Shown here: piece after piece, positions 10,123 to 19,074 of the stretch
How positions within the stretch are numbered: position 1 is the first letter of the stretch
Layout of the letters: each line of letters opens with the position of its first letter
Assembly: GCF_009602705.1 (NCBI RefSeq)
Contig: NZ_VSWH01000001.1
Span: 4,637,001 to 4,701,000, forward strand
Source: Chryseobacterium vaccae
Lineage (GTDB): Bacteria; Bacteroidota; Bacteroidia; Flavobacteriales; Weeksellaceae
Reading direction: 5' to 3'
DNA: 64,000 nucleotides
Translations under genes and position numbers: made by a program
Notes under the pieces: model-generated
Seen by the model: the letters and a program-made list of their open reading frames with translations, nothing else
The model's database searches: none
What the model was told of the DNA's origin: nothing

Positions 10123-11319
10123 TTACAAACTGTATCCGTTCTTTTTTGCCTGTTCCAGAATAGATTTTTCTATTGCTTTTCCCAGGTCGTCGGAATCATT
10201 GTTTCCCCGTTTTTTCATTTCGGCATCAATATACTTCTGGCGTTTTCTGGAGAGTTCTTCAATTTCTTTCTGGATCTTTCCACGCTCGGCAGATTTGGCT
10301 GCAACGGCTTTTTTAATTTCCTCTTTGCTTTTGCCTTTCAGTTCAGCCGGAAGTTCTTCTTCTTTAACGGATGAAATAAAACCTGCGTCTTTTTCGGCTT
10401 TGTCCACCAAATCCCAGTGATCATTTTTATAGGCGTTCTTTTTGGATTTGGCAACGGTTCTTTCCACAAAGTTGGCTGCAGATTGTACTTCCGCATTTTT
10501 ATCCTGCATGATCTGCTTGTTTTTATATTCAGAGCCGTGGCTTCCGTAATAGATATAAGTACTGTTCAGCCTTGAATTGCATTCCGAAATCCTTACATCG
10601 TATGGCGTTTCAATATAAATCACCTTTCTGTCGCTGTCGATATTGAAATATTTACCGCCGCCAAGAGAAGCTCCGTTCTGCCAGAAGGTTTGAATGCCCT
10701 CGTTTCGGTCTCCACAGAAAATAGTGCTGGTGTAAATATTTTTATTCTTAGCCTTCGAGATCACCTCTTTGTAATCTACTCTTCCCTGATTAAAGCCTTC
10801 ATTTCCTGCAATATAAATCAGTTTCATGCTTTTTTCATCCTTGTCCCAGTTCAGGTTGGCAGAGGCGTCACGGATTACGGCCCCGCAATATTCACTTCCG
10901 CCGTTGGTTCGTAGGGCAAATAGCTTTTCAGAAACCAGATCCAGGTCCTGCGTAAGCGGAGTAACCTGCCGGATGTAATTATCATCCCGGATTCCGTCAT
11001 TTCCGTATTCATACAAAGCGATCTCTATCTGTGGAGCCTGACCGTTATACTTCAGGGTGGTAAGGGTATTCACAATATTCCAGAGCCTTGATTTGGCCTG
11101 ATCAATCAGTCCGTCCATACTGTTGGAAGTGTCCAGTAGCAAAGCCACCTGGATTTTATTGTCTTTTGCGGTTGTATTTACCAGAGGTAAAGAGGCGTTC
11201 TGTACAATGGGATCTCTGCCGGATGTATTGTCTTTTGAACATTGGATTCCTGAAATGCTGCCGGAGCTTAAAAAAGCTACACCTGCTGCCAGTGTTAAAA
11301 TTTTAAAAGAAGTCATCAT
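10123..11319 (-). CDS. Exported von Willebrand factor A domain protein
   Basis: A 398-residue protein with an N-terminal hydrophobic signal, then a VWA domain from about residue 50 whose metal site begins with DTSNSMDG (the DxSxS MIDAS motif). The last 110 residues are highly charged and probably helical. A cysteine follows the signal (GIQC), but Gln before Cys is a poor lipobox, so lipidation is uncertain. It lies 16 bases after the DUF4139 gene, almost certainly in one operon and under the same direct-repeat site at 12998-13027. VWA domains usually mediate metal-dependent protein contacts. Confidence 0.88.
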   Translation of the reverse strand: MMTSFKILTLAAGVAFLSSGSISGIQCSKDNTSGRDPIVQNASLPLVNTTAKDNKIQVALLLDTSNSMDGLIDQAKSRLWNIVNTLTTLKYNGQAPQIEIALYEYGNDGIRDDNYIRQVTPLTQDLDLVSEKLFALRTNGGSEYCGAVIRDASANLNWDKDEKSMKLIYIAGNEGFNQGRVDYKEVISKAKNKNIYTSTIFCGDRNEGIQTFWQNGASLGGGKYFNIDSDRKVIYIETPYDVRISECNSRLNSTYIYYGSHGSEYKNKQIMQDKNAEVQSAANFVERTVAKSKKNAYKNDHWDLVDKAEKDAGFISSVKEEELPAELKGKSKEEIKKAVAAKSAERGKIQKEIEELSRKRQKYIDAEMKKRGNNDSDDLGKAIEKSILEQAKKNGYSL

Positions 11320-11335
11320 AATATATTTTTTTGGG

Positions 11336-12937
11336 TTATCTGCTGTAATATTGGATCTGCATATCTTTCGGAAATTTCACTTCATAAGAGAAGTTTATCT
11401 TGTCTGAACCTCCGCTGCTGATGTTTCTGTTCCACAGGATGCTTCCTGTTTTTTCATCATAACTTCCGCCGCCGGTTTCTAAAGCTTTTACCAGAATTTT
11501 GGAGTTCTCACTGATCGGAAGCTGGTCAAGCACTTCCAGTTCAATATTCTCTTTCGTATTGTTTCTGATGCTGATCTGGTAAGATTCTGTGTTCCATTTA
11601 TTAGAATTCATGGTCTTTTGAGACGTTTTATCTTCCAGTTTTATTCTTTTTACAGTAATTCTTTCATCTACACCCAGTGAGATCGGGAATTCGTCTTTCA
11701 CATAATTGCTGGTAATATTCGTTTTTCCGATATAATTATCTTCAAAATAAATATTAGCTTCTCCTGAAATAAGGTTGAGGTTCTGCCAGTTTTTCACAAA
11801 AGCCATCAGGAATACCTGGTTGTTAAGCTTCGGAACTGTATGGTATTTGTAGGCGGCATCAATTTGTTTTTTATCAAGAATTACATACTGCTCTTTCTCC
11901 TGGCTCAGTATCGTTTGATTGTAGTTGAGTTCATAAATCACATTCATCTGGCTATCAGAAACAGAGGCAATAGGGACCTGACTAGGTGATACAACTTCAT
12001 CGGCTCTTACCTGATAAGAATTTACTGCTGAAGTTTCCTTTTTCAGTTTATAGTAGGCCACTTCTCTCATAGGGTTGTGAGGAGTATATTCTGCTACGTA
12101 CAATGGAGAGAGGATAGGGCGGTCCTGATTGTAGGATGGGCGGTAGGTAGAAACAAAAAGCTTGATATTTTTCCAGTCCTGTCCGGTTCTCTGATAGATC
12201 TTTCCTTTATAAACCATTTCAAGCGGCTTCTTTACAGATTCTGCACGTAAATCGTAAGAAGGAATCCATCCTGCATCCGAAACAATATAACTTACTCCCA
12301 GATTCAGGCTGGTATCGTGATCTGCAAGGATTTCCAGAAGCAGCTCTTTTCTGTTGGTATTTTTATGGGTTTGTTCTTCAGCAGACTGTTTATTGATTTT
12401 GGCTATGCTTTCATCCAAAGCCGACTTCTGTTCGTTTAAAAGAAAAACCTGGTTGTCGATTTCCAGCATTCTTTTGCGGTAAAAATCGGTAAGTTTGATC
12501 AGCTGTTCCTGTGGGGTTGATTTATCATTCACGGAAACCTTCAGATTGTCATTGATGATGTTCTGCTCTCCGGTCAGGTTTTTAATCTGGATATTCAGAA
12601 GGTTTACCTGTCTCTGAAATTTTTTTCTTTCATCTTCAAGCTTTCTTTCCCCTTCAGACAGCTGGCCGTTATCCAGAAAATTGTTCTGCGGGGTAATGGA
12701 CAGAAGGGTAGTATTCTTTTCAAGGTTGATTTTATACGTGTTCTCATCCAGATTATTGGGGAGGTTGATAATTCTTACCATATTTCTTCCTTTCTGCAGG
12801 CTTACGCTGGTATTTCCGAAGACCTTGGCTCCCTGAAGGAATACCGTTGCCTGTTTTACCTCAATTTCTTTTTTTATTTCCTGAGCGCTGATTAGAGCTG
12901 CCGAAAATATGATGAGTATTAAAAAATAACGTTTCAT
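11336..12937 (-). CDS. DUF4139 / MuiA-like exported protein
   Basis: A 533-residue secreted or periplasmic protein with a cleavable signal ending in ALISAQ. The N-terminal region (KQATVFLQGAKVFGNTSVSLQKG) is the DUF4140-type domain, followed by a coiled-coil of about 100 residues. The C-terminal ~300 residues (VSYIVSDAGWIPSYDLRAES onward) are DUF4139. The family includes the so-called mucoidy inhibitor A proteins; the biochemical role is unknown. It is the first gene of a two-gene operon with the VWA protein. Confidence 0.88.
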   Translation of the reverse strand: MKRYFLILIIFSAALISAQEIKKEIEVKQATVFLQGAKVFGNTSVSLQKGRNMVRIINLPNNLDENTYKINLEKNTTLLSITPQNNFLDNGQLSEGERKLEDERKKFQRQVNLLNIQIKNLTGEQNIINDNLKVSVNDKSTPQEQLIKLTDFYRKRMLEIDNQVFLLNEQKSALDESIAKINKQSAEEQTHKNTNRKELLLEILADHDTSLNLGVSYIVSDAGWIPSYDLRAESVKKPLEMVYKGKIYQRTGQDWKNIKLFVSTYRPSYNQDRPILSPLYVAEYTPHNPMREVAYYKLKKETSAVNSYQVRADEVVSPSQVPIASVSDSQMNVIYELNYNQTILSQEKEQYVILDKKQIDAAYKYHTVPKLNNQVFLMAFVKNWQNLNLISGEANIYFEDNYIGKTNITSNYVKDEFPISLGVDERITVKRIKLEDKTSQKTMNSNKWNTESYQISIRNNTKENIELEVLDQLPISENSKILVKALETGGGSYDEKTGSILWNRNISSGGSDKINFSYEVKFPKDMQIQYYSR

Positions 12938-12962
12938 AGTTTATTGCTTTAAATTCCTGAAG

Positions 12963-12970
12963 TAAAATTA
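12963..12970 (-). promoter_or_regulatory. Predicted -7 box, DUF4139-VWA operon
   Basis: On the minus strand the box reads TAATTTTA, one base off TAnnTTTG, followed by CTTCAGGAATTTAAA. The same box and downstream bases occur upstream of the SIMPL gene, and in both cases the box lies exactly 27 bases from the ACTTGGTGA repeat. Confidence 0.5.
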
Positions 12971-12997: not shown

Positions 12998-13027
12998 ACT
13001 TGGTGAAATGGGACTTTGGCTTGGTGA
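12998..13027 (+). promoter_or_regulatory. Direct-repeat operator candidate A
   Basis: ACTTGGTGA at 12998-13006 and GCTTGGTGA at 13019-13027 are spaced exactly 21 bases, start to start. They lie 61 bases upstream of the DUF4139 start codon. The 9+12+9 layout is that of LytTR-family binding sites. See sites B and C. Confidence 0.6.
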
Positions 13028-13039
13028 AGCGAAAATATC

Positions 13040-13200
13040 TATGTTAGTTTTGTTGCAGATATGGCAGATGATGCAGATTTTTTGCTCAGTTAGATTTGAT
13101 AAAATTGAGAGAAATAAAATTCCAGCATCTATCAATATTCGGTAAAGTTTTAAATCTGCGCAATCTGTCGGATCTGAGAAAATACAAAAGAGACAGAATT
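13040..13200. repeat. CGCAGATT-like degenerate repeat region
   Basis: Contains TGCAGAT units spaced about 9-10 bases at 13052-13082 and, about 80 bases on, the reversed form AAATCTGCGCAATCTGTC. This resembles the AT-rich CGCAGATT family elsewhere in the window. The 12938-13360 gap otherwise holds only the operator, a GGCTTTAGCC repeat and a terminator. Confidence 0.4.
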
Positions 13201-13210
13201 TATTCAATAG

Positions 13211-13265
13211 GGGTGTACTTTAGTCCGCCCAAATAATAAGAAACAATCCATCGGCTTTAGCCTAA
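13211..13265 (+). repeat. GGCTTTAGCC-type intergenic repeat, copy 2
   Basis: Reads TACTTTAGTCCGCCC, an AT-rich middle, then CGGCTTTAGCCT. It is homologous to the reverse complement of 4374-4425. Confidence 0.5.
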
Positions 13266-13299
13266 ATCTATACAGCTAATACCTTTCGGAAACTGTATC

Positions 13300-13335
13300 T
13301 AAAAAATAAAAAAAACAGCCCTTTCGGACTGTTTC
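13300..13335 (-). terminator. Terminator of SIMPL gene
   Basis: Stem AAACAG/CTGTTT extended by GG/CC pairs around CTTTCGG, followed on the minus strand by a T tract, lies 25 bases past the stop codon. Confidence 0.75.
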
Positions 13336-13360
13336 CTTAAATCTGTTATTGTAGTCTATT

Positions 13361-14032
13361 TTAAAGGATTTCGTATCGTGTTTTGATACTGTATTTTAGT
13401 TTGATATTTTCTATGTTCTCAAAAGAGTTTCCTGCCGCTGCATCTGCCATTTCCATTATGCTGTTCATTTTTCCTCTGTAAGCTACCGGAAGAACCGTAT
13501 CGCTGGTATAATCTTCAATTTCTACGATTTCAAGAGGGCTTCCTGCTTTTTTGCCCATACTTTCCAACAGGTAATCTGCTTTTTCTTTAGCTGCTTTCAG
13601 GGCATTGATCTTAACTGTTTTTCTGAAATCTGCGATTTTGGTATTCTTAATTTCTGCAATATTCAGATTACTTACCCATTTTTGATTCAGATCTTCAAAT
13701 ATTTTACCGAGATCTGCCTTTGCATTGGCTTTAAACTGATAATTCTTGGTGAATTTTCCGGTTTTGGCATACGTATTCTGATACATGGATTTGAATTTGA
13801 TGTCTTCGTTCTTAATTCCGGCATTCTTTAATGTTTCAAATAGTTTCTTTTCCGTGTCTGCCAGTTCATTTTTGTTGTCTGCCTTTATACCGATGCTGAA
13901 GATGATTTCATCCGGTTCTATTTCCATTTCGGCAACCCCTGTTACTTCAATTGCATTTTTCTTTACTTCCTGTGCATTCATAAAACTTCCCAGTGTAAAG
14001 ATTCCGATCAATAAAAAATGTCTTAATTTCAT
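13361..14032 (-). CDS. SIMPL domain (DUF541) exported protein
   Basis: A 223-residue protein with signal peptide (LLIGIFTLGSFMNAQ) and the SIMPL/DUF541 pattern IEVTGVAEMEIEPDEIIFSIGI at the mature start, continuing to a C-terminal KLKYSIKTRYEI. Family members sit in the periplasm or outer membrane and are linked to stress responses; no enzymatic role is known. Its promoter region duplicates that of the DUF4139 gene: operator B 60 bases before the start and the TAATTTTA box 27 bases from it. Confidence 0.88.
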   Translation of the reverse strand: MKLRHFLLIGIFTLGSFMNAQEVKKNAIEVTGVAEMEIEPDEIIFSIGIKADNKNELADTEKKLFETLKNAGIKNEDIKFKSMYQNTYAKTGKFTKNYQFKANAKADLGKIFEDLNQKWVSNLNIAEIKNTKIADFRKTVKINALKAAKEKADYLLESMGKKAGSPLEIVEIEDYTSDTVLPVAYRGKMNSIMEMADAAAGNSFENIENIKLKYSIKTRYEIL

Positions 14033-14056
14033 AATTTCTTGTTTTAAATTCTGGAG

Positions 14057-14064
14057 TAAAATTA
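14057..14064 (-). promoter_or_regulatory. Predicted -7 box, SIMPL gene
   Basis: Minus-strand TAATTTTA with the same downstream bases as the box at 12963-12970, and the same 27-base spacing to the direct repeat. Confidence 0.5.
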
Positions 14065-14091
14065 CGGAGGTTCAGAAAGGAAATTCCGGAG

Positions 14092-14121
14092 ACTTGGTGA
14101 AATGAGGTTTTCACTTGGTGA
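14092..14121 (+). promoter_or_regulatory. Direct-repeat operator candidate B
   Basis: ACTTGGTGA at 14092-14100 and again at 14113-14121, 21 bases apart, upstream of the SIMPL gene. The 12-base spacer AATGAGGTTTTC is close to that of site C (AATAAGGTTTTG). Confidence 0.65.
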
Positions 14122-14141
14122 ATTATTGAATGTCCGTTATC

Positions 14142-14168
14142 ATAGGTAATAGGTAATAGGTAATAGGT
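14142..14168 (+). repeat. Heptamer tandem repeat AATAGGT
   Basis: Three full AATAGGT units plus a partial one. A related heptamer, ATTAGGT, is repeated after two of the M13 peptidase genes. Confidence 0.7.
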
Positions 14169-14204
14169 GAGCTGGGATAAAAGAGATCAGGAGTTTATTT
14201 TAAT

Positions 14205-14409
14205 CTGAGTTCGGGTTAAGGAGTTTAAATGTAAAAGGCTGGAAGCTGGAAGAAGGAGGTTAGAAGTTAATTTTAGTTTTACGTATTGAAAGCCACCTGA
14301 AAATCAAATTAAATATAATCAGATCAATATTTGCTGTTAATGACTTTCATAACTTCCATCATCCAGCTTCAAAGCTGCATCCATCATATATTCTTATCCC
14401 GAACTGAAG
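14205..14409 (+). repeat. 205-bp element with terminal inverted repeats, copy 1
   Basis: The ends CTGAGTTCGGGTTAAG (14205-14220) and CTTATCCCGAACTGAAG (14393-14409) are near-perfect inverted repeats. Inside, GCTGGAAGCTGGAAG near the left and CATCCAGCTTC near the right form subterminal inverted repeats. The reverse complement of 40535-40729 aligns with it along almost the full length. The 14033-14519 gap contains this element, operators B and C, the heptamer repeat and a promoter. Confidence 0.65.
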
Positions 14410-14433
14410 TTATTTAATAGCATCACAATTGTG

Positions 14434-14463
14434 ACTTGGTGAAATAAGGTTTTGACTTGGTAA
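14434..14463 (+). promoter_or_regulatory. Direct-repeat operator candidate C
   Basis: ACTTGGTGA at 14434-14442 and ACTTGGTAA at 14455-14463, 21 bases apart, 57 bases before the kinase start. The motif points toward the gene, unlike sites A and B, which read away from theirs. Confidence 0.6.
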
Positions 14464-14492: not shown

Positions 14493-14500
14493 TTACTTTG
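14493..14500 (+). promoter_or_regulatory. Predicted -7 box of TPR/LytS kinase gene
   Basis: TTACTTTG, one mismatch from TAnnTTTG, lies 29 bases after the operator and 19 bases before the GTG start. Confidence 0.5.
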
Positions 14501-14519: not shown

Positions 14520-16301
14520 GTGAAATTAGTTTTTAAAATATTGTTCATTTTTAGTCTTGCCGCAGGTAATCTCTGCCTGGCACAGGATTCTACACGGGTT
14601 AACAAAGCTTCCAAATCAGTTTCTAAACTGAGGAAAGCAGTTGATAATAATGATAATAAAGGGGTTGCTGACAGTTATGTAGGCATTGCCAATGATTATT
14701 ATAATCAGGGAAATTATGCCAAGAGTGAAGAATTTTTGACCAAGGCCAGAAATCTCTATAAAGATCTTAACGATAAAAAGAATCTCGAAATTGTAACCAG
14801 AAAAATTGCCCAGTCACAGGAAAAACAGAAAAAAATAGTCCCTGCGATCAGCAATTACAGCATGGCAGCTGAAATGAGTTTTGATGAAAAAAGCAGGACT
14901 GTCAATTCAAATGATGCGGCAAGACTGTCTGCACCTTCAGTAGAAAGGAAGGCAGATGCTATCCAGAGTAATATCAATATCAGTCTGAAAGAAAAAGATA
15001 AAAGTGCTGTGGCGGAAGGGTACAGCCAGATGGCAGAAGTTAATATTCAGCAGAATAATATTCCCAAGGCAGAAGAAAACCTGAATAATGCCTATGTTTT
15101 TTCGAAAAAAGAAGCTCCCCAGCAGGCCTTGGAAATCAATCAGAAGCTTACCAATTTCTATGTTGAAAACAGGAAGTTTGATAAAGCCATTGAAGCGAAA
15201 AAAGAGGTCTTGAAAGAAGATTTTGTAAAAGAAAACTCACAGGAAAAAGTGAACCAGATCCAGGAACTTGCCGATATTTATATTAAAAAAAATGATCCTG
15301 AAGAAGCCATTACTCTCTTGAAAAATGCCTACGGAATTGCTTTGGATAAAGGACATACACTGGAAGCCCAGAAAAGCGTGAAAAGGCTGGACAGCCTTTA
15401 TAATATATCAGGAAATACCGATGCTTCGGTAACATTGTACCGTGATTTCCTAGGAAAACTTCCGGATCTTGTTTCCAAAGACAGAAGCCTGATTGATAAT
15501 AAGATTCTTGAAGATACAGAACAGAGAATATCACAGCTGGAAAAAGAAAAACAGCTTAAAGATGAACTGATCCGTAAGAAAAATGTTTTTAATTACGGCC
15601 TGATCGGAGCGTTAATCCTGCTTACAGGTCTGGTATTCTTCATTTTCAGAACCCTGAAGAAAGTTCAGATCAAAAATAAAAAGATCGCCCTGCAGTCGCT
15701 GAGACGCGAAATGAATCCCCATTTTATTTTCAACAGCTTAAACAGTGTCAATCATTTTATTGCAACGAATAATGAACTGGAAGCCAATCAGTATCTGACC
15801 AAATTTTCAAAGCTGATGCGGGGTGTAATGGAAAATTCTGCTGAAGATTTTATTCCTTTTCAACAGGAACTCGACCTGCTTCAGAACTATCTGGCCCTGG
15901 AAAAGACCCGTTTTTCAGATAAATTCGATTATGAAATCGATACAGATGACAATTTAAATGTACAGAGCCTTAAGATTCCGGGAATGCTGGTTCAGCCGTT
16001 CCTTGAAAATGCAGTATGGCACGGTCTCCGCTACAGAACCGAAAAAGGATTTTTAAAATTAAGTTTCCAAAAAGAAGAAGCTCATTTAAAGATCACCATT
16101 GAAGACAACGGAATCGGTATTGAAGAAAGCAAAAAGCAGAAAACCGAGCACCAGAAGACCAGGGAAGGCCGCGGAATGAAAAATACACTCGAAAGAATAA
16201 GGCTTCTGAATGATCTTTATAAAAAAGACATTACCTGCTCCATCAAAGACAAAGAAAATAGCAGTGGAGTAGTGGTGACTATTAAAATCAACCTTATTTA
16301 A
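14520..16301 (+). CDS. TPR-containing LytS-type sensor histidine kinase
   Basis: A 593-residue membrane kinase starting at GTG. A signal peptide (LAAGNLCLAQ) is followed by about 300 residues of TPR-like repeats (SYVGIANDYYNQGNYAKSEE and similar), a coiled-coil, and one membrane helix near residues 360-378. The cytosolic part has the His_kinase (PF06580) motif NPHFIFNSLNSVNHFI with the phosphoacceptor H401, then an HATPase domain with LVQPFLENAVWHG, DNGIGI and GRGMKNTLERI. These proteins pair with LytTR regulators; the one at 18340 is the obvious partner. It may be autoregulated through operator C. Confidence 0.93.
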   Translation: MKLVFKILFIFSLAAGNLCLAQDSTRVNKASKSVSKLRKAVDNNDNKGVADSYVGIANDYYNQGNYAKSEEFLTKARNLYKDLNDKKNLEIVTRKIAQSQEKQKKIVPAISNYSMAAEMSFDEKSRTVNSNDAARLSAPSVERKADAIQSNINISLKEKDKSAVAEGYSQMAEVNIQQNNIPKAEENLNNAYVFSKKEAPQQALEINQKLTNFYVENRKFDKAIEAKKEVLKEDFVKENSQEKVNQIQELADIYIKKNDPEEAITLLKNAYGIALDKGHTLEAQKSVKRLDSLYNISGNTDASVTLYRDFLGKLPDLVSKDRSLIDNKILEDTEQRISQLEKEKQLKDELIRKKNVFNYGLIGALILLTGLVFFIFRTLKKVQIKNKKIALQSLRREMNPHFIFNSLNSVNHFIATNNELEANQYLTKFSKLMRGVMENSAEDFIPFQQELDLLQNYLALEKTRFSDKFDYEIDTDDNLNVQSLKIPGMLVQPFLENAVWHGLRYRTEKGFLKLSFQKEEAHLKITIEDNGIGIEESKKQKTEHQKTREGRGMKNTLERIRLLNDLYKKDITCSIKDKENSSGVVVTIKINLI

Positions 16302-16314
16302 AACATAAACCCCG

Positions 16315-17034
16315 ATGAAAAAAAATAGAGTATTGATATTGATCTCCTTATGGACTGGAATCTTATACGGACAGCAAATTGACGATACCCGGTATGAAAA
16401 TATTGTAAAAAGCCTGAAGCTGGATAAAACCAAAATCAAAGAAGAACTCTGCACAGAAAAGAAAATGCCGAATGCCGAAAATTCTTACATTGTGGTTGTC
16501 CCGGTTGTGGTGGAACAGGATGAAGAAGACTATGTTTTTACAGTACAGAACTATATTTTAATTACTGATGAAAAAGGGGTTATAAAAAATAAATATTTAG
16601 ATCCTGAGGAAATTTCTTCTGATGCTATATACTTAAGAAATTTTGGGATAGATACGGGATTGTATAATCTCAATACCAATATCCGTGCGTTTGGAGTGAT
16701 AGCCGATTTTGCAGGCAGCAGCAAACCGAATCCATATGCTTCAGGAAGAATGTCAATGTATTATCCCGAAGGAAAAACGCTTAAAAAAGTTCTCAATCAG
16801 TTTGAAATGTATTCCACCCATGGGGAATGGGATACCCGATGCAATGGTGAATTTGAAGATAATCACTCGTTTATTGTTCTTGATAAAGCAAAGACCAATA
16901 ATTTCACAGACCTGAAAATTAAAACTATTTCCGTGAAGACCGTTAATACAGATGTCAACGGAGAATGTAATGAAAAGGAAACCTCCAGAACAACTTATAA
17001 AATTTTAAAGTTGAGGGGTGGGAAATACCAATAG
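16315..17034 (+). CDS. Exported protein of unknown function
   Basis: A 239-residue protein with a signal ending in GILYGQ and no recognised domain. The mature part is a mixed sequence with a central run of hydrophobic beta strands (YIVVVPVVVEQDEEDYVF) and three cysteines. It follows the kinase gene by only 13 bases, so it is probably in the same transcript. A sensory or accessory role for the kinase is a guess from position alone. Confidence 0.6.
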   Translation: MKKNRVLILISLWTGILYGQQIDDTRYENIVKSLKLDKTKIKEELCTEKKMPNAENSYIVVVPVVVEQDEEDYVFTVQNYILITDEKGVIKNKYLDPEEISSDAIYLRNFGIDTGLYNLNTNIRAFGVIADFAGSSKPNPYASGRMSMYYPEGKTLKKVLNQFEMYSTHGEWDTRCNGEFEDNHSFIVLDKAKTNNFTDLKIKTISVKTVNTDVNGECNEKETSRTTYKILKLRGGKYQ

Positions 17035-17126
17035 AAAAACTTTATTTCAGGGTCGATTTTTTATAATCTGATTTTTTCTGTAACCAAATGGAAACAGAAA
17101 TTGTCTATATATAAAACTTGATCCCA

Positions 17127-17813
17127 ATGAACACCCCTAACAAAACAGCCCGGCTGGCAGGATTTATTTATCTTATAGTAATGGCAGCCGGTTTCTTCAG
17201 TTTAATGTATGTTCCGTCTCAGCTTATAAACTGGGAAGATTCCCGGATTACATTTCAGAATATTTCTTCCTCTCCGCAACTGTTCAGATTAGGAATTGCA
17301 GGAAGTATGATCTGCTATATTGCGTTTATGCTCTTACCTCTGGTTTTATACAGATTATTAAAAAATGTAAATGAAACCCACGCCCGGCTGATGGTTATTT
17401 TTGCATTGATGAGTGTTCCCATATCATTTCTCAATCTGCAAAGCCGGTTTTCTGTGCTTACCATTATTGAAGGTGCTGATTATCTTAAAGGAGTTAATGC
17501 AGAACAGCTCCAGTCCCAGGTAATGCTCCTTCTTAACAGCTATAACAAAGGGATCTTAATTGTCCAGATGTTTTGGGGGCTTTGGCTTTTGCCATTTGGC
17601 TATCTGGTCTACAAATCTGGTTTTCTGCCAAAATTTTTAGGAGTTTTCTTAATACTGGGATGTGTGGGATATGTTGCCAATGTTTTTGCCAGAACCTTAA
17701 TTCCGGATTTTTCTGCTTATCCTGTATCCAGTTATATTACTCTCCCCGCTTCCATAGGGGAAATAGGAACTGGATTATGGCTGCTGATCTTAGGCGTGAG
17801 GAATAAAAATTAA
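17127..17813 (+). CDS. DUF4386 membrane protein
   Basis: A 228-residue integral membrane protein with about six hydrophobic helices. The start NKTARLAGFIYLIVMAAGFF and the ending SIGEIGTGLWLLILGVR match the DUF4386 family, whose function is unknown. I chose ATG 17127 rather than the TTG nine bases upstream. It lies 92 bases after the exported protein and 22 before the next membrane gene. Confidence 0.85.
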   Translation: MNTPNKTARLAGFIYLIVMAAGFFSLMYVPSQLINWEDSRITFQNISSSPQLFRLGIAGSMICYIAFMLLPLVLYRLLKNVNETHARLMVIFALMSVPISFLNLQSRFSVLTIIEGADYLKGVNAEQLQSQVMLLLNSYNKGILIVQMFWGLWLLPFGYLVYKSGFLPKFLGVFLILGCVGYVANVFARTLIPDFSAYPVSSYITLPASIGEIGTGLWLLILGVRNKN

Positions 17814-17835
17814 CTAACTGATAAAACAATCGATC

Positions 17836-18252
17836 ATGAATAACTCCATACATTTTGAAGAAACCTCTGTCAATATAAAAATTATTCTTGCCGGGCTCTG
17901 GACTTCTGCCACCCTGTGTTATCTTTATGGAGACTATTTTGAACTCTATATTCCCGGGAAGGCAAAGGGCTTAGTTGAAGGAACGAATCTACTGGATAGT
18001 CCTGTAAAGCTGTTTATGGCCGCTGTTGTACTGGCACTTCCCGCGGTAATGGTTTTTCTCTCTCTGATGTTGAAGGCAAAAATCAACAGGATATTCAACA
18101 TTATTCTGGGAATATTTTTTACCGCCATAATGCTGCTTATTGCTGCGACTTCATTAACAGCCTGGCGCGCATTCTATGTTTTTCTGGCCTTATTGGAAAG
18201 TTTCATCACTATCCTGATTGTATGGAAGGCATGGAAATGGAAAAAAATATAG
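17836..18252 (+). CDS. Small four-helix membrane protein (DUF6326-like)
   Basis: A 138-residue membrane protein with four hydrophobic stretches. The pattern LWTSATLCYLYGDYFELYIPG is like DUF6326; that match is from memory and should be searched. The gene is co-directional with DUF4386 with a 22-base gap. Role unknown; it and its neighbour lie between the kinase and the response regulator. Confidence 0.65.
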   Translation: MNNSIHFEETSVNIKIILAGLWTSATLCYLYGDYFELYIPGKAKGLVEGTNLLDSPVKLFMAAVVLALPAVMVFLSLMLKAKINRIFNIILGIFFTAIMLLIAATSLTAWRAFYVFLALLESFITILIVWKAWKWKKI

Positions 18253-18339: not shown

Positions 18340-19074
18340 ATGAAAATAAAAGCTGTAATTGTAGACGACGAAATCATTGCACGAGAAGTTCTGAGAAGCT
18401 ATCTCACCAAATATTGTCCGCAGGTGGAAATTCTCGGGGAAGCTGAAAATATAAAAGAAGCCGTTCCGCTGATTACAGAAACGCAGCCACAACTCGTGTT
18501 CCTGGATGTTGAAATGCCTTTCGGAAACGCTTTTGATGTACTGGAGGCTACCAAAGAATTTTCCTACGAAACCATATTTATTACTGCATTTTCACAATAT
18601 TCACTGCAGGCCCTTAATAAATCGGCGAGCTATTACATTTTAAAACCCATCGATATTCAGGAGCTCATTCTGGCTGTCAACAAAGTTGTAGAAAGTCTTG
18701 AAAAGAAAGAAGAGCTCAACCGGAATAAAATTCTCCTCGAAAACTTAAAATTGAAACCGGAAAAACAACAGCTTATCCTGCCGACCCTTCAGGGGTTCGA
18801 TGTGGTAAAAACAGAAGATATTGTAAGACTACAGGCAGACGGAAACTTTACCCAGGTTTATCTTACCGACGGTTCAAAGAAAATGGTTTGCAGATTCCTG
18901 AAGCATTTTGACGATCTGCTGGAAAGCCCGTTTGTAAGAGTTCATCGTTCTCATATCATCAATACCGGTTTTGTAAAATCTTATCATAAAAGTGGAACTG
19001 TAATGCTTGCTGACCATACTGAAATTGAGGTCTCCGGAAGCTTTAAAGATAACTTTCTAAAGGTGTTTTCCTAG
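18340..19074 (+). CDS. LytTR-family response regulator
   Basis: A 244-residue cytosolic transcription factor. The receiver domain covers about residues 3-120, with acidic residues DDE near the start, phosphoacceptor D56 in LVFLDVEMP and the lysine in YYILKPID. A LytTR DNA-binding domain covers about residues 145-244 (DIVRLQADGNFTQVYLTDG and VRVHRSHIINTGFVK). LytTR proteins bind two 9-bp direct repeats separated by 12-13 bp, which is what sites A-C show. A TAATTTTA box like that of the SIMPL gene lies at 18303-18310. Confidence 0.95.
   Translation: MKIKAVIVDDEIIAREVLRSYLTKYCPQVEILGEAENIKEAVPLITETQPQLVFLDVEMPFGNAFDVLEATKEFSYETIFITAFSQYSLQALNKSASYYILKPIDIQELILAVNKVVESLEKKEELNRNKILLENLKLKPEKQQLILPTLQGFDVVKTEDIVRLQADGNFTQVYLTDGSKKMVCRFLKHFDDLLESPFVRVHRSHIINTGFVKSYHKSGTVMLADHTEIEVSGSFKDNFLKVFS

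Follow-up and report, generated by a model that had tools for sequence, protein, structure and literature searches.

Three paired direct repeats in the genome of Chryseobacterium vaccae are most likely, judging from sequence, the operator of a LytTR response regulator (gene at 18340), which would probably activate the genes of a sensor kinase and of SIMPL, DUF4139 and VWA proteins. The sites lie in a stretch of 64,000 nucleotides, here called the window and numbered from its first letter. The paired element, its geometry, its restriction to one gene module, its co-occurrence with the regulator and its conservation were observed directly. The original prediction, in which the LytTR regulator governs a small envelope regulon that includes an autoregulated kinase, is supported from four sides: the confinement of the sites to one locus, the co-occurrence of motif and regulator, the split loci of some relatives and the geometry found in a second family.

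Genes of the locus

On the minus strand, the locus contains genes for a VWA-domain protein (10123..11319, Pfam PF00092), for a DUF4140/DUF4139 protein that matches the NCBIfam "mucoidy inhibitor MuiA family" (11336..12937), and for a protein with a SIMPL (DUF541) domain (13361..14032, Pfam PF04402). The plus strand encodes a sensor kinase (14520..16301) with a hydrophobic stretch at the N terminus, followed by TPRs, one hydrophobic segment and a LytS-type core of His_kinase and HATPase_c; its domains were assigned by profile matches and its hydrophobic stretches by eye from the translation. The closest named locus by kinase is that of Chryseobacterium indologenes CI_885, with 95% identity, a comparison from which records of the window's own genome were possibly excluded.

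The proposed operator binder is encoded further along the same strand (18340..19074). It has a receiver followed by a LytTR domain, as expected of a LytTR-type response regulator (Response_reg 59.1 bits, cut-off 30.2; LytTR 43.6 bits, cut-off 22.6). Its best NCBIfam matches are BtsR (YehT) at 101 bits and LytR at 92 bits, scores far under the family cut-offs of 246 and 375 bits, respectively. No close solved LytTR structure was found for it, the best match being 3d6w (E 0.015). The linkage of a His_kinase (PF06580) plus HATPase_c kinase to a LytTR regulator is that of a LytS/LytR-type two-component system. Of the 80 named kinase loci, 79 also contain the regulator, the exception (L072) ending inside the kinase gene; in 35 of the 80, no more than 250 nt separate it from the kinase. 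Three genes separate the two in the window (16315-18252), one without a Pfam family, one of DUF4386 and one of DUF6326; relatives of these occur in 30, 14 and 17 of the 80 named loci, respectively.

Three paired sites in the window

All three sites (starting at 12998, 14092 and 14434) lie on the plus strand and follow the pattern ACTTGGTGA-N12-ACTTGGTGA. Candidate operator A (ACTTGGTGA-N12-GCTTGGTGA, 12998..13027) has one mismatch, in its second copy, and stands upstream of the minus-strand DUF4139-VWA operon. Candidate B (ACTTGGTGA-N12-ACTTGGTGA, 14092..14121) has none and precedes the minus-strand SIMPL gene, and candidate C (ACTTGGTGA-N12-ACTTGGTAA, 14434..14463) has one, again in the second copy, and precedes the plus-strand gene of the TPR/LytS-type kinase. 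A predicted -7 box, TAATTTTAC, is found on the minus strand 27 nt from site A in the DUF4139-VWA promoter (12962..12970) and likewise 27 nt from site B in the SIMPL promoter (14056..14064). In the kinase promoter, a -7-like box, TTACTTTG, lies 29 nt from site C on the plus strand (14493..14500). The start codons are 61, 60 and 56 nt away from sites A, B and C, that of the kinase being GTG. Between the promoters of the SIMPL and kinase genes, close to site B, there is a perfect tandem array of the 7-bp unit ATAGGTA (3.9 copies, 14142-14168).

It was found that 100 shuffles of the window gave a mean of 0.02 matches at up to three mismatches, with a maximum of one, against three in the real sequence. 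The three matching pairs at a 21-base spacing had been described beforehand; they are borne out, with 1, 0 and 1 mismatches and beyond shuffle expectation, and the distances given with them (27 nt to the -7 box and 61 and 60 nt to the start codons at A and B) proved exact. Taken singly, the 9-mer occurs in the window as often as chance predicts (14 observed versus 13.9 expected), which means that the signal is the pair at its 21-bp spacing. A scan of the whole genome, proposed as a check of the original prediction, was run on 5,125,723 bases. At up to two mismatches it returned three matches, all in this locus and without scatter elsewhere. Allowing three mismatches raised the count to five; the same pattern read backward gave six, so that the three-mismatch level is background. 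The two extra matches have three mismatches each and both lie inside open frames, and they were dropped as regulon targets.

Promoter geometry and orientation

The geometry was examined in the 80 named loci together with the window, which gave 214 sites at up to three mismatches (106, 85, 21 and 2 sites at 0, 1, 2 and 3 mismatches, respectively), a total that includes eight sites first classed as "other" by distance. A -7 box stands 27-29 nt away from each of the 214. On the side of minus-strand genes, 132 sites have the TAATTTTAC-type box at exactly 27 nt and three have it at 28 nt; on the kinase side, TTACTTTG or TATCTTTG is found at 29 nt for 65 sites and at 28 nt for 16. Six sites have boxes on both sides, and four have neither type and carry TAAGTTTG at 28 nt. 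Since the -7 boxes formed no part of the search pattern, they are independent evidence that the sites are promoter elements. In Bacteroidota, promoters follow a -33/-7 consensus, with the -33 element placed 19 bp before the -7. With this spacing, the operator lies just upstream of the -33 region, at a distance of about 4-6 bp; a clear -33 element is visible in one kinase promoter type only.

Each of the 80 named loci has between one and four sites, one of them on the kinase side in all 80, and their 211 sites are without exception on the coding strand of the kinase. In five loci (L073, L082, L083, L106 and L109), the SIMPL and kinase genes diverge from an interval with a single operator, which has -7 boxes 27 nt and 28-29 nt away. 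Three more (L098, L094 and L104) have a kinase-side site with a -7 box also on its other side, at 28 nt. In the window, site C shares its strand with A and B and its gene runs in the opposite direction. This had been pointed out in the original prediction as an opposite orientation. The geometry is as it was described there; it is not an anomaly, however, and is likely the trace of an operator between divergent promoters. The sites retain one strand orientation, and the apparent reversal of site C would simply reflect that its gene belongs to the opposite side of the former pair.

The element also follows its genes when they are apart. In G142, G053 and G079, the half of the locus with kinase and regulator is separated from the half with SIMPL/VWA or DUF4139/VWA genes (in G079 by about 18 kb), and both halves retain a site. 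Sites on contig fragments of G034 and G021 are again upstream of DUF4139 and SIMPL genes. Of six extra proteins scanned from the loci of these relatives, five are about 300-320 aa long, have a SIMPL domain and are encoded next to a site, which extends the predicted regulon of some relatives by a second SIMPL-like protein; the sixth belongs to ChaN/Tiki. In G079 (L198:5833-6933), the DUF4139 operator lies between the DUF4139 gene and a divergent gene of the ChaN/Tiki family (haem-binding uptake).

Co-occurrence of motif and regulator in the genus

Within a sample of 148 genomes of the genus, the motif (at most two mismatches) was found in 140 and the regulator (E≤1e-70) in 138, where G063 is counted as regulator-positive with only regulator residues 122-244 present. 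Every one of the 138 regulator-positive genomes has the motif. Among the ten regulator-negative genomes, it is absent from eight (G045, G051, G073, G087, G098, G102, G108 and G134) and present in G056 and G123. The contig of G056 ends inside the kinase gene (residues 1-546 present), so the regulator would lie past the contig end, and G123 is a 73% complete genome in 600 contigs.

All eight motif-less genomes also lack SIMPL and a close DUF4139 protein, a 30-32% identical relative of the latter occurring in G051, G098 and G102. The module is therefore present or absent as a whole, and since it is gained or lost whole, the co-occurrence cannot count as independent support for the regulator by itself. 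Relatives of the regulator (E≤1e-20, best identity 31-39%) are retained in six of the eight, for example five in G102 and four in G108; at this cut-off, none was found in G098 and G134. SIMPL is not a strict companion of the regulator, as it is absent (E≤1e-15) from five regulator-positive genomes of other genera and, within the DNA stretch examined, from five of the 80 named loci.

Relatives outside the genus

In the family sample of 246 genomes, a close regulator was found outside the genus in five, four of which have the motif at up to two mismatches (G150, G176, G181 and G211). G150 has regulator and kinase, with a site only before DUF4139 and none before the kinase at up to four mismatches, which indicates that autoregulation is not universal. 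The fifth, G224, has a regulator with 64-65% identity and is without the motif at that level; its kinase promoter carries AATGGGTAA-N12-AATGGGTAA instead, with TTACTTTA at 29 nt. By eye, the LytTR parts differ at many positions, and no usable residue change was found that tracks the change of operator in G224. In another genome, the regulator gene has an in-frame TAA (G298:C1:2877366-2878097) and a single motif match is left, which would fit decay of the regulon.

The regulator of a further family (f3/g35) is 66-69% identical, and its gene directly follows that of the kinase. Here, the intergenic DNA before the kinase was scanned, with no use of the motif, for direct repeats of 9-mers (at least eight of nine matching, at least three G/C) at offsets of 12-31. 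All 15 loci scored at an offset of 21, compared with 0-3 at each of the other offsets. The units are mostly AAATGGTGA/ACTTGGTGA. All 15 have -7 boxes at 27 nt on the VWA side and at 29 nt toward the kinase, a count that kept only sites with a -7 box at 27-29 nt and so describes the geometry and is no independent test; the best repeat pair of each locus had been found without that filter. A single operator has both boxes and faces two divergent promoters in nine of the 15. The other six have two operators flanking a gene: the first retains the 27-nt side alone, and both boxes are present in three of the six second operators. All six second operators fall below the eight-of-nine cut of the scan. 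In the six loci with a second operator (L224, L226, L228, L229, L230 and L232), the VWA and kinase genes are separated by an additional gene that encodes about 320-345 aa.

A more distant set of 17 loci (16 with regulators of 43-50% identity and that of G224) gives a weak signal, with offset 21 in six loci, that of G224 included, versus 0-2 at the other offsets; at least one of the six repeats (L236) is some 2 kb away from its kinase gene and is probably a chance match. Drift of the sequence at fixed spacing and fixed promoter distance is what would be expected of an operator that drifts along with its regulator.

Proposed mechanism and alternatives

We infer binding, phosphotransfer, activation, the signal and the history of the operator from these observations, as follows. 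The arrangement of the kinase, in which two hydrophobic stretches flank the TPRs ahead of a LytS-type core, suggests that its TPR part probably reads a signal from the envelope. The kinase (14520) would then phosphorylate the regulator (18340), a dimer of which would occupy the two 9-bp units, spaced by 21 bp or two helical turns and located immediately upstream of the -33 element. Once bound, it would most likely activate the promoters of the DUF4139-VWA operon, of SIMPL and of its own kinase. If the regulator does bind, activation is likely by analogy: known LytTR operators share this design together with positive autoregulation, which makes activation the first guess, argued from position only. 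The ancestral operator may have stood between the divergent kinase and envelope genes, serving both from mirror positions (27 and 29 nt), and in Chryseobacterium this shared operator would have multiplied into several copies as genes were added or moved apart. One shared two-way operator, later multiplied, is the simplest history that can be inferred, and the three sites of the window look like its separated copies. Whether a single head-to-tail operator lets one dimer activate two divergent promoters at mirror distances, is kept in at least two families of one order and multiplies into one-sided copies when genes separate is put at even chances. What is unusual in the proposal is that a head-to-tail dimer would serve promoters at either end from almost the same distance.

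The same regulator and operator could instead act in repression, or activate on one side and repress on the other, which is considered unlikely. One kinase promoter type has TTTTTG and TATCTTTG, near the Bacteroidota -33/-7 consensus, and may need no help, and a head-to-tail dimer shows different faces to the two promoters. However, the operator lies 27-29 nt upstream of the -7 box in all 214 sites and not over it, as it does for LytTR activators (PMC6193735, PMC4227749), and the nearly equal distance on both sides suggests a single mode of action. There is also a small chance that the sites are bound by another LytTR protein of the genome or by a non-LytTR factor encoded elsewhere. With 19 LytTR domains in the genome, the proposed pairing of this regulator with the operator rests on linkage and co-occurrence, and the module is gained or lost together. 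This explanation is countered by the presence of the motif in all 138 genomes that have this regulator, by the six of eight motif-less genomes that still hold relatives of it, and by the lack of a close site beyond the locus in the window's genome. In addition, no 21-bp repeat pair (at least eight of nine matching, at least three G/C) precedes the kinase in L248 and L249, which have regulator paralogs of 44% identity.

It is very improbable that a helix-turn-helix dimer binds the element as an inverted repeat, GTGAAA-N6-TTTCAC, with the direct repeat being incidental. The exact inverted repeat is present in 75 of the 214 sites, site B included. ACTTGG occurs in both copies of 181 of the 214, against 76 with any matching inverted arms, a count biased toward direct repeats, by which the sites had been found. 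Free of this bias are the offset-21 direct repeats in all 15 loci of f3/g35. By eye, the second unit of 12 of the 15 first-listed operators in that family is preceded by TTTTG, TTTCG or TTCTG and not by TTTTC, so that the inverted arms are broken, and the 21-bp direct repeat of G224 has another sequence and no inverted arms. The inverted-repeat reading was rejected on the direct-repeat counts, the f3/g35 loci and G224. Barely credible is a non-regulatory origin of the sites as a dispersed repeat, a chance match or a coding match. Background matches do occur: 35 genomes outside the genus have a match at up to two mismatches, 31 of them without a close regulator, and among the matches listed for these 31 genomes there are 45, all with two mismatches except two with one. 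Yet, of the 30 of these 45 that were fetched as loci, 24 lie inside open frames of at least 150 codons and six do not, compared with 30 of the 211 sites in named loci, and the true sites stand at a fixed promoter distance and are not scattered in the window's genome. Operation of the sites by the LytTR regulator at 18340 is the preferred reading.

Significance and comparison with known LytTR systems

We know of no settled function for the DUF4139, SIMPL and VWA proteins. The analysis joins them with a kinase, a regulator and an operator in a single regulon that spans a large genus and extends into another family, and a reporter could therefore be used to search for its trigger. It also supplies a candidate operator for a Bacteroidota LytTR response regulator. 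A LytTR regulator is mutated in Flavobacterium johnsoniae under antibiotic competition, with no link to this locus found (PMC10197871). The mirror placement poses the question of whether a dimer bound to direct repeats can activate RNA polymerase from either end. No published description of this operator or regulon was found in a search of the PMC literature, which takes in few subscription journals and preprints.

The formal LytTR consensus is [TA][AC][CA]GTTN[AG][TG]. Compared by eye, the units TCACCAAGT/ACTTGGTGA do not conform to it: they share only ACCA with most listed LytTR units and have no GTT. LytTR Regulatory Systems, such as HdrR/BrsR of Streptococcus mutans, bind two 9-bp direct repeats, mostly 12 bp apart; the repeats are mostly of the ACCACTTA type, in contrast to the TCACCAAGT/ACTTGGTGA units found here, and a functional repeat that diverges from the consensus is on record (PMC6193735). 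A predicted direct repeat is also listed for a Bacteroides LytTR system (PMC6193735). The 9-12-9 design (11-13 bp between the units, mostly 12) is seen here as well, with N12 at sites A, B and C and an offset of 21 in 15 of 15 f3/g35 loci. Known LytTR operators lie 4-11 bp upstream of -35 in S. mutans and mostly 10 bp upstream in others, and LytTR Regulatory Systems keep their own operon under positive feedback, HdrR/BrsR acting on bacteriocin genes as well (PMC6193735). In these systems, the partner of the LytTR protein is a membrane protein, and they are set apart from two-component systems (PMC6193735). The partner here is not a non-kinase membrane protein but a TPR histidine kinase, acting with a full response regulator, and, unlike in LytTR Regulatory Systems, the operator can also stand mirror-placed between divergent promoters.

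BtsR (YehT) and LytR have the receiver and LytTR domain in common with the regulator, whereas the kinase here has a TPR part, and their targets differ from those of this locus. The agr system is autoregulated. AgrA of Staphylococcus aureus, a response regulator with a LytTR domain, binds intergenic direct repeats upstream of P2 and P3, centred near -60 (PMC4227749). In comparison with AgrA, the targets here are envelope-type proteins. The agr repeats are described per promoter (PMC4227749), whereas here one pair can match the distance to both divergent promoters.
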